From: Rhodococcus zopfii NBRC 100606 = JCM 9919
Lineage (GTDB): Bacteria > Actinomycetota > Actinomycetes > Mycobacteriales > Mycobacteriaceae
Length of the DNA: 64,000 bases
Direction: 5' to 3'
NCBI RefSeq assembly: GCF_001895025.1
Contig: NZ_BCXI01000014.1
Location: forward strand, 1 to 64,000
Part shown: one piece after another, positions 2,866-48,078 of the stretch
Numbering within the stretch: the stretch's first letter is position 1
Layout: each line of letters starts with the position of its first letter
Position numbers and translations under genes: made by a program
Notes under the pieces: generated by a model
Told to the model about the DNA's origin: nothing
The model's input: only the letters and a program-made list of their open reading frames with translations
The model's database searches: none

Positions 2866-3843
2866 CTACTTGCCGGGCTTCACACCGGTGATCATGACGT
2901 TGTAGAAGAAGCTGCGCGGGACGACGTGCTTGAGCACGTTCTCGTCGACCCAGCTCAGCGTCCTCCAGCCGCCGAACGCGAACTTCGCCCAGCCCCAGCC
3001 GAGCTTCCCCTCCGGCACAGCAGCCTCGAAGGTGCGCACGGGCCACCCGAGCAGCGCCGCGGCGAACTCCTCGCTCGACGCCTTCACCTCGACGGCACCG
3101 GCGGCGGTCGCGATCTTCTCGAGATCGGACGGATCGAAGGTGTGCAGGTCGACGACGGCTTCGAGCGCGGCGGCACGCGACGACTCGTCGAGCTCGGTCT
3201 GCGGGCGGCGCCAGCCGCTCAGGAACGGCAGCTTGGTGACGCTGGTGGTCGCCTCCCACGTGATGCGGCCGAGCCACCGTGCGTAGAAGTTGCCGACGGT
3301 GCTGGGCTCACCGGCGAACACGAACCGGCCGCCGGGCTTGAGGACGCGCAGGACCTCGCGCAGCGACTGCTCGACATCCGGGATGTGATGCAGGACAGCG
3401 TGACCCACGACGAGGTCGAAGGTGTCGTCCTCGTACGGGATGGTTTCGGCGTCGGCGACTCGGCCGTCGACGTCGAGTCCGAGGTGCTCGGCGTTGCGCA
3501 GCGCCACCTTGACCATGCCGGGCGACAGGTCGGTCACCGAACCGGACTTCGCGACGCCCGCCTGCATGAGGTTGAGCAGGAAGAAGCCGGTGCCGCAACC
3601 GAGTTCGAGCGCCTTCCCGTACGGGAGGGGCTGCTCGCCGGCGGCCGCGTCGAAGCGGCCCTTGGCGTAGTCGATGCACCGTTCGTCGTACGAGATGGAC
3701 CACTTCTCGTCGTAGGACTCGGCTTCCCAGTCGTGGTAGAGCACCTGGGCGAGCTTGGTGTCCTCGAGCGCAGCGGCGACCTCTTCGGCGGTGGCGTGCG
3801 GGTTCGGCGCGGGATCGGTCCCGTCGGTCCTGCTTGCAGTCAT
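2866..3843 (-). CDS. Class I SAM-dependent methyltransferase
   Basis: A 325-residue methyltransferase of the Methyltransf_11/UbiE type. LELGCGTGFF (about residue 85) is the SAM-binding glycine-rich loop, SVTDLSPGMVKVA motif II, DAETIPYEDDTFDLVVGHAVLHH the adenine-contact and motif IV region, and LRVLKPGGRFVF motif VI. The C-terminal ~150 residues are family-specific. It is first of a tight pair with the next methyltransferase and corresponds to Rv3038c. ATG 3843 is chosen over ATG 3861 because a -10-like TAGGAT ends exactly 7 nt before it, the layout of a leaderless transcript. Substrate unknown. Confidence 0.88.
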   Translation of the reverse strand: MTASRTDGTDPAPNPHATAEEVAAALEDTKLAQVLYHDWEAESYDEKWSISYDERCIDYAKGRFDAAAGEQPLPYGKALELGCGTGFFLLNLMQAGVAKSGSVTDLSPGMVKVALRNAEHLGLDVDGRVADAETIPYEDDTFDLVVGHAVLHHIPDVEQSLREVLRVLKPGGRFVFAGEPSTVGNFYARWLGRITWEATTSVTKLPFLSGWRRPQTELDESSRAAALEAVVDLHTFDPSDLEKIATAAGAVEVKASSEEFAAALLGWPVRTFEAAVPEGKLGWGWAKFAFGGWRTLSWVDENVLKHVVPRSFFYNVMITGVKPGK

Positions 3844-3850
3844 AGGGGTG

Positions 3851-3856
3851 ATCCTA
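3851..3856 (-). promoter_or_regulatory. -10 element of a leaderless promoter (methyltransferase pair)
   Basis: TAGGAT on the minus strand ends 7 nt before ATG 3843. The same TANNNT-to-start spacing recurs at many genes of this window, so transcription probably begins at the start codon. Confidence 0.6.
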
Positions 3857-3896
3857 CCCATCGGTAAGTGTGGAACAAGTTCCAGTTTCTCCGGGC

Positions 3897-4676
3897 CTAT
3901 TCCCCCGTGAACACCGCCTTACCCGGCCCGTTCGCCATGAACGACTCCATCCCGATCGTGCGGTCGGCCGTGGCGAACAGCGACGCGAACACGTGCTGCT
4001 CGATCTTCAGGCCGGTACCCAGGTCGGTGTCCAGACCCTGATCGATCGCGGCCTTCGCCGCCGCGAGGGCACGCGAGGCCGCGCCGGTGAACTGCGACGC
4101 CCACGTCCGCGCCGCGTTGTACACCTCGTCCGGCGCGACCACTTCGTCGACCAACCCGATCTCGAGCGCCTCGTCCGGTCCGACGAACCGGCCCGTGAAC
4201 ACGATGTCCTTCGCCTTCGACGGACCGACGAGCCGCGCGAGCCGTTGCGTTCCCCCGCCACCGGGGATGATGCCCAGCAGGATCTCCGGCGTCCCGACCT
4301 TGACGTTGTCGCCGATGACCCTGCGGTCCGCACCCAGCGCGAGTTCCAGGCCGCCGCCGAGCGCGTAGCCGGTGATCGCCGCGACCGTCGGCTTCGGGAT
4401 GTCCGCGATCGACCCGATCGCCGACTGCAGATCCGCGATGATCTCGCTCATCTGCACGAAACTCGTCTCGGCGAGTTCCTTGATGTCGGCACCGGCGGCG
4501 AACACCTTCTCACCGCCGTAGACGATCACGGCCTTGACGTCCTCGCGCACCGTGGCCTCCCGGGCCGCTGCACGGATCTCCTCCTGCACCTGCCGGTTCA
4601 GCGCGTTCATCGGCGGTCGGTCGAGTCTGATCGTTCCGATGCCGTCGGACACCTCGAGAGTGACGAATTCAGCCAT
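3897..4676 (-). CDS. echA17: Enoyl-CoA hydratase/isomerase family protein, EchA17-like
   Basis: A 259-residue crotonase-fold protein predicted to hydrate enoyl-CoA. Oxyanion-hole segments are AAGADIKEL (about residues 60-68) and ALGGGLELALG (about 104-114); the usual catalytic Glu pair can be placed in GGGLELA and in GIIPGGGGTQR, although the latter region has Pro-Gly where many hydratases have the second Glu, so activity on a given substrate is not certain. N-terminus and neighbours match Rv3039c (echA17). Start ATG 4676 is preceded by TAGCCT with 7-nt spacing. Stands between the methyltransferase pair and a NUDIX gene. Confidence 0.9.
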   Translation of the reverse strand: MAEFVTLEVSDGIGTIRLDRPPMNALNRQVQEEIRAAAREATVREDVKAVIVYGGEKVFAAGADIKELAETSFVQMSEIIADLQSAIGSIADIPKPTVAAITGYALGGGLELALGADRRVIGDNVKVGTPEILLGIIPGGGGTQRLARLVGPSKAKDIVFTGRFVGPDEALEIGLVDEVVAPDEVYNAARTWASQFTGAASRALAAAKAAIDQGLDTDLGTGLKIEQHVFASLFATADRTIGMESFMANGPGKAVFTGE

Positions 4677-5661: not shown

Positions 5662-6498
5662 TCAGACCTGCACGCGGTGCCGGCCCGGCTCCCGGGTGCG
5701 ACGCGCGAAGTACCGGCCGTCGACACGGTCGAGCGTGATCGACTGGCTGAACGCGGTGCTCAGGTTCTCTGCGGTGATCACGTCGTCGATCAGCCCCTGC
5801 GACACCACCTGCCCTTCCTTGAGCAGCATCGCGTGGGTGAAGCCCGGCGGGATCTCCTCGACGTGGTGGGTGATCAGCACCGTCGCGGGGGCATCCGGAT
5901 CCGCGGCGAGCGTCGCGAGACGCGCGACCAGTTCCTCGCGACCCCCGAGGTCCAGGCCCGCGGCCGGCTCGTCAAGCAGCAGCAGTTCCGGATCGGTCAT
6001 CAGCGCCCGGGCGATGAGGACACGCTTGCGTTCACCCTCCGACAAGGTGCCGTACGTACGGCCGGCGAGATGTTCGGCGCCGAGGCTCTCGAGCATCTCC
6101 GTCGCCCGCTCGGTGTCGATCGCGTCGTACTGCTCCCGCCACCGGCCGAGCACCCCGTACCCGGCGGACACCACCAGATCGGAGACCTTCTCGTCGTACG
6201 GCACTCGATTGGCCAGTGCCGACGACGACATCCCGATGCGCGGCCGCAATTCGGACAGGTCGGTGTGCCCGAACCGCTCGGCCAGCACGCTCGCCGTACC
6301 GGAGGTCGGGAACGTCTCCGCGGCCGCGATCCGCAGCAACGAGGTCTTGCCGGCGCCGTTGGGTCCGAGCACCACCCAGCGTTCGTCCAGCTCCACCTTC
6401 CAGGTCACGGGTCCGACCAGGACGTTGCCGCCCCGCCGCACCAACACGTCGTCGAATTCGATGAGCAGATCGGGATCAGGTTGTGCCACGCCGTCCAT
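5662..6498 (-). CDS. ABC transporter ATP-binding protein
   Basis: A 278-residue single ABC ATPase domain. Walker A is GPNGAGKTSLL (about residues 45-55), the signature is LSEGERKRVLIARAL (about 155), Walker B LLLLDEPAAGLD follows, and ITHHVEEIPPGF holds the switch histidine. The motif set resembles ModF/YnjD-like or ABC-F-unrelated single-domain ATPases. It matches Rv3041c in position. No membrane partner is adjacent, so the transported substrate, or whether it is a transporter at all, is open. ATG 6498 is used; GTG 6486 is an alternative. Confidence 0.88.
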   Translation of the reverse strand: MDGVAQPDPDLLIEFDDVLVRRGGNVLVGPVTWKVELDERWVVLGPNGAGKTSLLRIAAAETFPTSGTASVLAERFGHTDLSELRPRIGMSSSALANRVPYDEKVSDLVVSAGYGVLGRWREQYDAIDTERATEMLESLGAEHLAGRTYGTLSEGERKRVLIARALMTDPELLLLDEPAAGLDLGGREELVARLATLAADPDAPATVLITHHVEEIPPGFTHAMLLKEGQVVSQGLIDDVITAENLSTAFSQSITLDRVDGRYFARRTREPGRHRVQV

Positions 6499-46166: not shown

Positions 46167-46511
46167 TCAAGCCGTGAGCGTGTATCCGACCCACGCCGCG
46201 GCGAGCCCGGCGACGACACTGAGGACGACGTAACCGATTCCGGTGAGCGGCCGTCGGATCCGGGTGAGTCCGACGGCTTCGACCGCGAAGGTCGAATACG
46301 TGGTCAGTCCACCGCAGAAGCCGGACCCGAGCAGCGCGAACAGCTCCGGCGACAGGGCCGGACCGGACAGGACACCGAGCAGGGCGCAGCCGAACACGTT
46401 CACCGCGAGCGTCGCGAGCGGAACACTGCGGTAGGACCGGATGTGCCGGCCGGCGAGGTAGCGCACCACGGCGCCGGCGCCGCCGCCCAGCGCGACGAAC
46501 AGCACGGTCAT
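46167..46511 (-). CDS. crcB: Fluoride channel subunit CrcB/Fluc (second of pair)
   Basis: A 114-residue four-helix protein of the Fluc family. [16 protein letters not shown] (about residues 9-24), NVFGCALLG and [15 protein letters not shown] (about 69-83) match the fluoride-pore signatures, including the polar TTYSTF track. ATG 46511 overlaps the stop of the other crcB by 4 nt (ATGA). The two products probably form a heterodimer of opposite orientation. Confidence 0.93.
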
Positions 46512-46870
46512 CGCGCCGCCCGCCGTCGGTGCCACCGTTCACCGGCGGCCATCCCGCAGCGCGCGGCGACCAAGGCCCCGGCGAGCGTGATCGTCACGTA
46601 CACCGCCGCGAGTGCCGGACTACGGACAGCGTCGACCGCGAACGTCGAGAACGTGGTGAATCCCCCCAGCACCCCGATGCCGAGGAACAGCCGCCATAAC
46701 CTGTCCGGCCCGACCATCGCGGCGAGAATGCCGAGCAGCAACGAGCCGACGACGTTGATCACCGCGATCGTCCAGACGCCCGGGAACGCTGTGGACAGGC
46801 CGTAGCGCGCGACCGCGCCGAGTGCTCCCCCGGCCGCGACCACCGCGACCGCTCGGGCGTGCACGGACAT
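46508..46870 (-). CDS. crcB: Fluoride channel subunit CrcB/Fluc (first of pair)
   Basis: A 120-residue Fluc subunit: [14 protein letters not shown] (about residues 13-26), NVVGSLLLG, and [17 protein letters not shown] (about 70-86). Its Arg-rich C-terminus ([11 protein letters not shown]) differs from the other subunit, giving opposite charge bias as expected for a dual-topology heterodimer. ATG 46870 is used; the frame is open to 46918. No fluoride riboswitch was recognised upstream. Confidence 0.92.
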
Positions 46871-47099
46871 CACCGTTCGCCGGTCGGTGGGGACGGCAGG
46901 ACCTGGGGGCATGGGCACAAATCTGCGACGGTACCCGCTCCCGCCGGACCGTGCGGCGGAGTGGCGGGTGAACCGCCGGCCCGCGTTGGGCTGCGGCGAG
47001 CGGAGCCGCCGGCCCGTTCACCGACGGGAGGTTCCCGGTGGGCGACGAGGCCGGGCCGGCATCTTGCAGGACGGAGCGACCGTTCGGTTTCCTCGATGC

Positions 47100-47228
47100 A
47101 TGAAGAGGGCGCGATGGAATCCGGACAAACCGTTGTTCGGCGACGACAATGCGACGGCCTCGGCCGCGCTCGCGATAGGTCTCGTGGTAGTCGTCGCGCT
47201 TCTGCTGGTCGCCTGCCTCCTCCTCTGA
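47100..47228 (+). CDS. 42-residue single-helix membrane peptide, copy 1
   Basis: A small open frame encoding 42 residues: a charged head MKRARWNPDKPLFGDD, then a hydrophobic stretch SAALAIGLVVVVALLLVACL as the C-terminal half. The same layout and 42-residue length recur 255 bp downstream, which argues strongly that both are real genes under selection. The frame is embedded between crcB and tmRNA on the opposite strand to both. No family is recognised; a single-pass, tail-anchored regulator or small toxin-like peptide are possibilities. No strong ribosome binding site is seen. Confidence 0.65.
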   Translation: MKRARWNPDKPLFGDDNATASAALAIGLVVVVALLLVACLLL

Positions 47229-47354
47229 TCCCGGCTGTCGGCGGACGGAACCACCGGCCCATTACTCCGTGTGGAGCAGCCACAGCTTCGATGGGAGGAT
47301 GTTCCGGTACGAAAACGCTGCGAAACAGGCTGACCGCCCCGTTTCATGGAAGGC

Positions 47355-47483
47355 ATGGACAAGGCGCGTTGGGATTCGGAGACACCGCTCTTCGCGGAAG
47401 ACTGCGCGGCGGGCGGAGCCACGCTTGCGGTCGGTCTCGGTGTGGTCATCGCCCTGCTGGTGGTGGTGTTCTTGGTGCTCTGA
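47355..47483 (+). CDS. 42-residue single-helix membrane peptide, copy 2
   Basis: ATG 47355 to TGA 47481-47483 encodes 42 residues: MDKARWDSETPLFAEDCA, then GGATLAVGL and a hydrophobic tail ending VVVFLVL. It aligns without gaps to copy 1 (ARW, PLF, acidic pair, ALAxGL core, hydrophobic tail), so the two are tandem paralogues. GGAAGG lies just before the ATG. A 9-bp GC-rich inverted repeat follows at 47493-47535. The gene is too short for most gene finders. Function unknown. Confidence 0.7.
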   Translation: MDKARWDSETPLFAEDCAAGGATLAVGLGVVIALLVVVFLVL

Positions 47484-47492
47484 CCAAAAGGT

Positions 47493-47535
47493 GCGCCCCG
47501 CCTCTCCGGGTACAGGGGTCGGGGAAGCGGGGCGC
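47493..47535. terminator. Hairpin after the small membrane peptide genes
   Basis: Arms GCGCCCCGC (47493-47501) and GCGGGGCGC (47527-47535) enclose 25 nt, 9 nt beyond the stop of copy 2; probable terminator for the plus-strand peptide genes. Confidence 0.55.
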
Positions 47536-47650
47536 GACGGTGGCCGCAGCGAGCGTGTCGGGGGCGCGTCTCCACGGCCACCGGCAGTTGAATCGACAAC
47601 CACGTCCCGGGCGTTACGCGCATTTCCGCACCTATTTCCGGATACGAGGA

Positions 47651-47705: not shown

Positions 47706-47709
47706 CTTG

Positions 47710-48078
47710 TGGAGCTGCCGGGAATCGAACCCGGGTCCTCCGCCGCCTCACCAGGGCTTCTCCGTGTGCAGTTCGCTATGTCTCTACTTGGATCTCCCGG
47801 TCTCGCGAACCAGCCGAGATGACGATCCCAGTCACTGTTTGATGTCCCGCCCGACTCCGTGACCGAGTCGAACGGTAGAGCTCCCTAGTCGATGCCAGGA
47901 ACCGGGTCGGGAGCGAACCCGGGCTGACAGAGACGCGATCGCTACTTAGGCAGCGAGGGCGTACTCGCGCTGAGTGGACTCGGCGCTTAATTGGTTGCAA
48001 TGACGCTTACGGTGGTCTCTTGCCTGCACCGACACGCTTCCCCTGGTTGAACGTACGCAGTCGAAACCGTTCAGCCCC
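47710..48078 (-). ncRNA. ssrA: Transfer-messenger RNA (tmRNA)
   Basis: A 369-nt RNA on the minus strand. The ends pair as in tRNA-Ala: GGGGCTG at the 5' end with CAGCTCC at the 3' end, and the T-arm GGGTTCGATTCCC is intact; CCA is not encoded. The messenger part encodes AESTQREYALAA followed by TAA (47984 down to 47946), ending in the ALAA degron typical of actinobacteria. tmRNA tags proteins on stalled ribosomes together with SmpB, whose gene lies 2.6 kb away at 50646. Confidence 0.96.

Follow-up and report, generated by a model that had tools for sequence, protein, structure and literature searches.

Two predicted membrane peptides between crcB and tmRNA of Rhodococcus zopfii belong to a broader family that also occurs on phage and plasmid DNA

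Introduction

In a 64,000-nucleotide stretch of Rhodococcus zopfii DNA (contig NZ_BCXI01000014.1), hereafter the window, two short open reading frames, A and B, lie between a pair of crcB genes and the tmRNA gene (Table 1). A sequence-only reading had singled them out as tandem paralogous membrane peptides that belong to no recognised family and would be missed by ordinary gene finding. Are these frames genes, how did they come to lie side by side, and what kind of peptide do they encode? We addressed these questions by comparing the locus with genomes of the genus and beyond, with plasmid and phage DNA, and with libraries of known families.

Table 1. Features of the A/B locus; positions are those of the window unless a locus is named.
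Feature	Position	Strand	Remark
crcB pair	46167..46535 and 46508..46918	-	neighbour; context outside the element
Promoter-like block of A	47064..47099	+	TTGC 47064-47067, 20 nt, TTTCCT 47088-47093, 6 nt, ATG
Gene A	47100..47228	+	42-aa one-span membrane-type peptide
Cassette junction	47246..47270	.	R. phenolicus has 1.9 kb here, the window is without it
Decayed palindrome, putative TetR operator	47273..47305	.	GGAGCAGCC...GGATGTTCC in the window (by eye)
Promoter-like block of B	47318..47354	+	CTGC 47318-47321, 20 nt, TTTCAT 47342-47347, 7 nt, ATG
Gene B	47355..47483	+	42-aa one-span membrane-type peptide
Structured block, candidate small RNA of ~120 nt	47484..47607	-	convergent with B; ends in a stem + ACCTTTTGG by the B stop
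tmRNA (ssrA)	47709..48078	-	context; other flank of A/B
B orthologues	HM1 L002/L026; R. phenolicus L003/L027

Results

A and B encode paralogous peptides

Both plus-strand frames are present as described earlier, equal in length, and their peptides align without gaps, with 22 identities in 42 residues; pairwise BLASTP matched residues 1-27 with E = 1e-9. In each peptide a hydrophobic 19-mer (residues 24-42), with a mean hydropathy of 3.34 in A and 3.28 in B, extends to the final residue, in agreement with the C-terminal hydrophobic helix claimed for both. The DNA of the two genes is also similar, though the string said to be common to them is not exact: A has AAACCG where B has ACACCG. The location between crcB and tmRNA was confirmed, as the second crcB gene matched Pfam CRCB (PF02537) with E = 1.5e-20; the first was identified by its resemblance to the second gene. 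An unsystematic reading of the window genes recognised no phage gene adjoining A/B.

Relatives of B were detected in Rhodococcus sp. HM1 (genome G007; E = 2.4e-18) and in R. phenolicus DSM 44812 (G012; E = 2.0e-16). The A orthologue of R. phenolicus (L019) is 83% identical to A, with dN 0.10 and dS 0.63; A was not found in HM1. The ratio dN/dS, which had been proposed as a check between orthologues, was below 1 in all seven pairs compared (range 0.13 to 0.54), and the third codon position was the most changed in the same seven. Between the A genes of the window and R. phenolicus, for example, codon positions 1, 2 and 3 carry 6, 3 and 14 substitutions. Taken alone, the third-position bias gave P values of 0.0035 to 0.083 across the seven pairs, so individual pairs are not all significant. 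The frame is also conserved outside this strain: it is kept in relatives, though A- or B-type copies occur in only three of 18 genus genomes, and homologous frames of similar length were found in 15 members of the family described below. The substitution patterns show that A and B are genes under purifying selection and bear out the earlier suggestion of coding selection.

A wider family with a PLFGD box

Among the weak matches of B within the genus we found peptides of a common plan, a short polar segment with the box WxWxxDEPLFGDxxxPxG followed by one terminal helix. The 15 members are 42-50 residues long and possess a single hydrophobic 19-mer. The N-terminal segments carry charges between -5 and +3, and a tail of net charge +1 follows the 19-mer in six of the 15, which does not settle the topology. 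With E-values no worse than 1.4e-5, a ten-row profile detected 12 loci in seven of the 18 genus genomes; ten of these were rows of the searching profile itself, and the new ones were G003:C1 (4.9e-13) and G007:C231 (1.4e-5). TBLASTN located further members on plasmids from two R. pyridinivorans strains, YF3 and SB3094, as well as on plas-2 of Rhodococcus sp. DMF-1. Their single-query E-values were 0.3 to 3, and we accepted them because the full frames carry box and helix; the R. pyridinivorans members have the box variant PLLDD. A scan of IMG/VR yielded three loci, two of identical sequence, a second scan with A- and B-type rows only found none, and phage records searched by TBLASTN with two members held nothing credible. 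Several copies are redundant: L092 is a near copy of L091, the L123 peptide equals that of DMF-1, and the L125 peptide equals that of L124. The family thus occupies several unrelated chromosomal sites in addition to phage and plasmid DNA, and on the evidence of these sequences A/B is one corner of it.

Over larger genome sets, the first profile matched 23 of 401 genomes at E <= 0.05. Later searches matched 11 of 301 at E <= 0.01 (seven of the genus, four weak others), 14 of 397 at E <= 0.01 at the level of the order (two of the genus, 12 weak others) and 10 of 401 at E <= 0.005 in a further search (seven of the genus; G169, G197 and G258 weak). Among the at most 18-24 candidates scored per genome there was no sound member outside the genus, a depth at which absence is weakly tested. 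We inspected the frames of most weak matches from the search with B and from the first of these larger searches, and those of the four weak others among the 301 genomes, with L078-L089 and L131 left out. Those of G169 and G292 held no readable peptide, and G197 (43 aa, no promoter-like block) entered alignment A4 and was removed from A5 as doubtful.

Two side observations concern the chromosomal sites. Loci L071 and L073 are second copies in G015 and G003 and lie 1.7-3.9 kb behind a tRNA-Leu gene, possibly an island site; the gene preceding this tRNA-Leu is presumably Ppx/GppA. Near L074 (10-11 kb) and L076 (0.2-1.1 kb), loci that otherwise differ, similar proteins of the form QGGIRRGPRLADNF...LSFRAR are encoded, which gave no Pfam match and hint at related mobile elements.

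No described family claims the members tested against Pfam and PHROGs (13 members each), NCBIfam (15), PADLOC (5) or PDB (a 13-row profile), as the sequence-only reading had anticipated. Any single library family was matched by two members at most, all weakly; the best PHROG match had E = 0.0034, in one of 13 members, and the best PDB match E = 0.16. Pfam DUF6479, DUF5408 and Ost4 share a short membrane segment with the members, but they scored only 12.0-13.1 bits against cut-offs of at least 25. A literature search on two accessions and the string PLFGD found no paper. The expectation that such genes escape ordinary gene finding stood in part: WP_267966277.1 and WP_024100250.1 are annotated, as hypothetical proteins on plasmids, whereas another member is unlisted in a gene table described as incomplete.

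Several members lie in phage genomes

The annotation of DMF-1 plas-2 includes terminase, minor head protein, major capsid protein, peptidoglycan endopeptidase, integrase and HTH regulators, and thus describes a phage genome kept as a plasmid. Its peptide gene is oriented against the late genes. In L123 the peptide gene is located between, and on the opposite strand to, two minor tail genes (E to 6.2e-60) and an endolysin gene (6.3e-138; Pfam M23 and GH25), and it shares its strand with a DUF4352 gene. In L124 an endolysin gene adjoins the peptide gene, likewise on the opposite strand. The placement that marks a moron gene, inside a phage genome and against the late genes, was therefore found in DMF-1 plas-2, L123 and L124; the window copies A/B are not so placed. 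Phage context is supported for L075 and L076, whose neighbours match tail, head-tail connector and tail-chaperone PHROGs, and the surroundings of L074 contain an anti-repressor match and a transposase. We saw no partner gene at every member site. As a separate observation, the related phages L090, L123 and L124 possess beside the lysin a small opposite-strand cassette in which the PLFGD peptide gene is accompanied by a short gene that looks lipoprotein-like (by eye); the cassettes of L090 and L123 also include a DUF4352 gene.

A promoter-like block precedes most members

When aligned at the start codon, the members usually display the pattern TTGC, 19 or 20 nt, TTYCMT, 6 nt, RTG, with variable spacer sequence. 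In a count of 15 members that left out L092, L123 and L125, 12 scored 9 or 10 of 10 (spacer of 17-22 and gap of 5-8 allowed); the exceptions were G001 with 7/10, L124 with 6/10 and DMF1 with 5/10. As background, five of the 3731 RTG triplets of the window reach at least 9/10, two of which are A and B. The strict form of the block occurs at nine distinct sites in 710 kb, every one before a member, with the same result at 464 kb; the 710 kb comprise 147 sequences, many overlapping, taken around members or weak matches. Since the motif was drawn from the members, the DNA was taken mostly around them and, by our reading, about five lineages are represented, the 12 high scores are not 12 independent events. 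The upstream sequence of the phage copies L123/DMF-1 and L124 differs; since DMF1 and L124, both phage members, and G001, whose context is that of a prophage, are without the block, its presence does not depend on a phage location.

The second hexamer does not possess the A at position 2 and is unlike an ordinary sigma-70 -10 box; a consensus scan found no promoter. The block sits where the -10 box of a leaderless gene would be, about 6-7 nt before the start codon, which suggests that the members may be expressed as if leaderless. Given the hexamer without the -10 A, the block is as likely to be read by an alternative sigma factor or by some other DNA-binding protein.

The adjacency of A and B is probably secondary

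In R. phenolicus A and B are about 2 kb apart, separated by SRPBCC (Polyketide_cyc2), hemerythrin and TetR genes; the identities of these cassette genes come from Pfam, the hemerythrin having been scanned as its HM1 copy. BLASTN aligned window positions 46501-47246 with 3271-4003 of the R. phenolicus locus L027, on one side of the cassette, and positions 47270-47617 with 5917-6263, on the other, so that the junction in the window is clean. HM1 retains the cassette together with B. In a tree of 15 rows and 45 columns, A and B form a clade with support of 99/96 and the B sequences of the three strains a clade with 97/99; the two A rows were not resolved as a clade and six of 12 inner branches are open. 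Because B of the three strains is one clade, the split between A and B is older than that between the strains. We therefore rejected a recent tandem duplication, which is at odds with both this clade and the cassette that separates A and B in R. phenolicus. The two genes are paralogous, as proposed, whereas their tandem arrangement is best explained by cassette loss, with an A/B split that predates the carrier strains: the present adjacency probably arose secondarily, through loss of the 1.9-kb cassette. The simplest history starts from an ancestral order A-cassette-B, with the cassette lost in the window strain and A lost in HM1, a direction that three strains cannot prove.

A palindrome near the cassette junction, a putative TetR operator, is intact in HM1 (GGAACAGCC...GGCTGTTCC, between tetR and B) and near-intact in R. 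phenolicus. Over this region the window is 70% identical to either of the other strains, compared with 93% between HM1 and R. phenolicus. Such decay in the window is expected if the TetR regulator was lost. In genomes G003 and G015 no more than about 130 bp separate the crcB pair from tmRNA, and both A and B are absent from this interval.

Reading of the frames in HM1 indicated that its SRPBCC copy appears broken, and at the expected position of A (L026, about 3900-4500) we noticed short GTCGGTGCCGCCGGGA-like repeats. Integrase-type insertion into ssrA was also considered and rejected: the first 20 bases of the tmRNA 3' end found 13-14 of 20 matches at best near A/B and in HM1 and R. phenolicus. 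In R. phenolicus that stretch is occupied by a long frame, which we take from its motifs to be a P-type ATPase, and no integrase was seen. The R. phenolicus contig stops about 20 bp into the tmRNA 3' end (L027 11979-11998), and the only tmRNA match listed above the cut-off in this genome is partial (52 bits, model 34-331), lies on another contig (L120) and was not called by ARAGORN. This state would be explained by a split assembly or by the presence of another, divergent tmRNA.

A structured block convergent with B

The hairpin that had been noted 3' of B is present and belongs to a larger conserved block. Identity among the three strains amounts to 88-96% over 47484-47603, compared with 78-81% in B and 36-44% in the next 37 window positions. 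The minus strand gave fold z-scores of -4.0, -5.0 and -3.9 in the three strains, and the plus strand -2.9, -1.9 and -2.95. On the minus strand the same three hairpins form in all three strains; six consensus pairs vary on one side yet remain paired, no pair changed on both sides, and where pairing is lost this is due to gaps and one mismatch in HM1. In the plus-strand consensus a mismatch disrupts each of five pairs, and one pair is changed on both sides. The minus-strand hairpin closest to B is followed by a T-rich tail (ACCTTTTGG, AACTTTTCG or ACCTCTTCGG). Possible promoters for a minus-strand RNA were judged by eye. The full block was found only beside B, in three of 18 genus genomes, other matches spanning 20-38 nt. 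Rfam gave only weak matches below the gathering score and a plasmid search gave none, and a phage search found 41-nt matches in eight Microbacterium phage records (E = 0.03). Conservation and folding suggest, as far as three sequences can without proving it, that the block is a small RNA on the minus strand, convergent with B.

Discussion

What, then, are A and B? Since the family also occurs on Rhodococcus prophages and plasmids, they are probably settled-in cargo of mobile DNA and not random frames. As the best explanation, we propose that both come from a family of membrane peptides that Rhodococcus phages and plasmids carry as accessory cargo, and that they have settled between crcB and tmRNA, perhaps for use in lysogenic conversion or phage exclusion at the membrane. 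We put the probability of this tentative reading at roughly 0.4. Transcription would begin at the start codon, and the peptide would be produced in the lysogenic or resident state. The C-terminal helix would insert it into the membrane, where the PLFGD box may bind a host or phage membrane partner on the cytosolic face. The likeliest use would be lysogenic conversion or phage exclusion, and the A/B pair may represent retained, possibly domesticated copies. Actinophage accessory genes in such positions are generally seen as excluding competing phages. We accordingly rank exclusion first among the conceivable functions, for which one precedent is described (PMC6426596).

The same study reports that prophage genes at central positions are active during lysogeny and provide defence (PMC6426596). 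The genes gp30/gp31 of mycobacteriophage Sbash resemble the present genes in comprising a membrane protein and in being accessory genes among late genes in temperate phages of the same order; gp31, however, is predicted to span the membrane four times and is partnered by the DUF4747 protein gp30, whereas here we found a single span and saw no constant partner (PMC6426596). No DUF4747 match was obtained among the 20 neighbour proteins scanned, which are part of the neighbours, and the four-span membrane component of Sbash- or RexAB-like exclusion is absent from the members, with their 42-50 residues and one hydrophobic 19-mer. Leaderless small proteins of mycobacteria are alike in their RTG start behind a promoter-like block and in short frames that are often unannotated (PMC4633059). 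They differ in having the usual AT-rich -10 box (PMC4633059) where the present family has TTYCMT, and for the latter leaderless expression is predicted from sequence.

The structured block raises the alternative that B and a convergent minus-strand RNA form a type I toxin-antitoxin-like unit, in which the antisense RNA would pair with the 3' end of B mRNA across a shared terminator region. Type I toxins such as Fst, Ldr and TxpA are short, hydrophobic, one-helix peptides that occur in multiple copies and on plasmids and prophages. The size and single helix of our peptides fit, judged by hydropathy, as does their distribution over plasmids, phages and multi-copy chromosomal sites; moreover, the block is better conserved than B, its minus strand folds best in all three strains and a stem with T-rich tail lies beside the B stop. 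Nevertheless, we hold this reading to be unlikely. The full block accompanies B alone, in those three genomes; conservation is poor (36-44%) upstream of the minus-strand RNA; and the consensus is without pairs changed on both sides. In R. phenolicus A abuts the convergent SRPBCC gene, and L123 and L124 also abut a convergent gene, with no room for an antisense RNA. The family differs from those toxins both in this, for several members, and in its conserved polar PLFGD box, which in our judgement would be unexpected in a simple pore-former. The convergent block makes a type I-like arrangement of B worth a test, which does not extend to the family. A combination of both ideas, in which B and the structured RNA would be a type I-like regulated unit derived from the phage-borne PLFGD family and acting at the lysogen membrane against competing phages, has the odds clearly against it.

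A function as small regulatory subunits, either of the adjacent CrcB fluoride channel or of the TetR-hemerythrin-SRPBCC cassette, is improbable for the peptides. Such a role would agree with A adjoining crcB and with B being divergent from tetR across the palindrome in HM1 and R. phenolicus, yet the window retains B though the cassette is gone and the palindrome decayed, G003 and G015 carry the crcB pair with neither A nor B there, and none of these neighbours was recognised at the other member sites examined. There is a still slimmer chance that they belong to phage lysis, as antiholin-like or holin-like accessories that remained on chromosomes: the single span and the proximity to an endolysin or endopeptidase gene in L090, L123 and L124 speak for it, the orientation against the lysin and tail genes, on the other strand, and the lack of an annotated lysin near the R. 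pyridinivorans plasmid copies against it. Chance open frames or non-coding conservation we consider hardly credible; the frames are short, and the local DNA at 47484-47603 is conserved for a separate reason, but neither point accounts for homologous frames of similar length in 15 members, dN/dS below 1 in every comparison and profile E-values down to about 1e-20.

We thus return to phage- and plasmid-borne cargo as the preferred reading. The finding defines a family of small proteins that is absent from the searched libraries and gives annotators a signature for it: a W...PLFGD box and a terminal helix, often behind a promoter-like block whose distance from the start codon is nearly fixed. It also exposes a candidate small RNA beside tmRNA. 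Finally, it links chromosomal peptides of Rhodococcus to phage cargo, which makes a function in lysogenic conversion directly testable.
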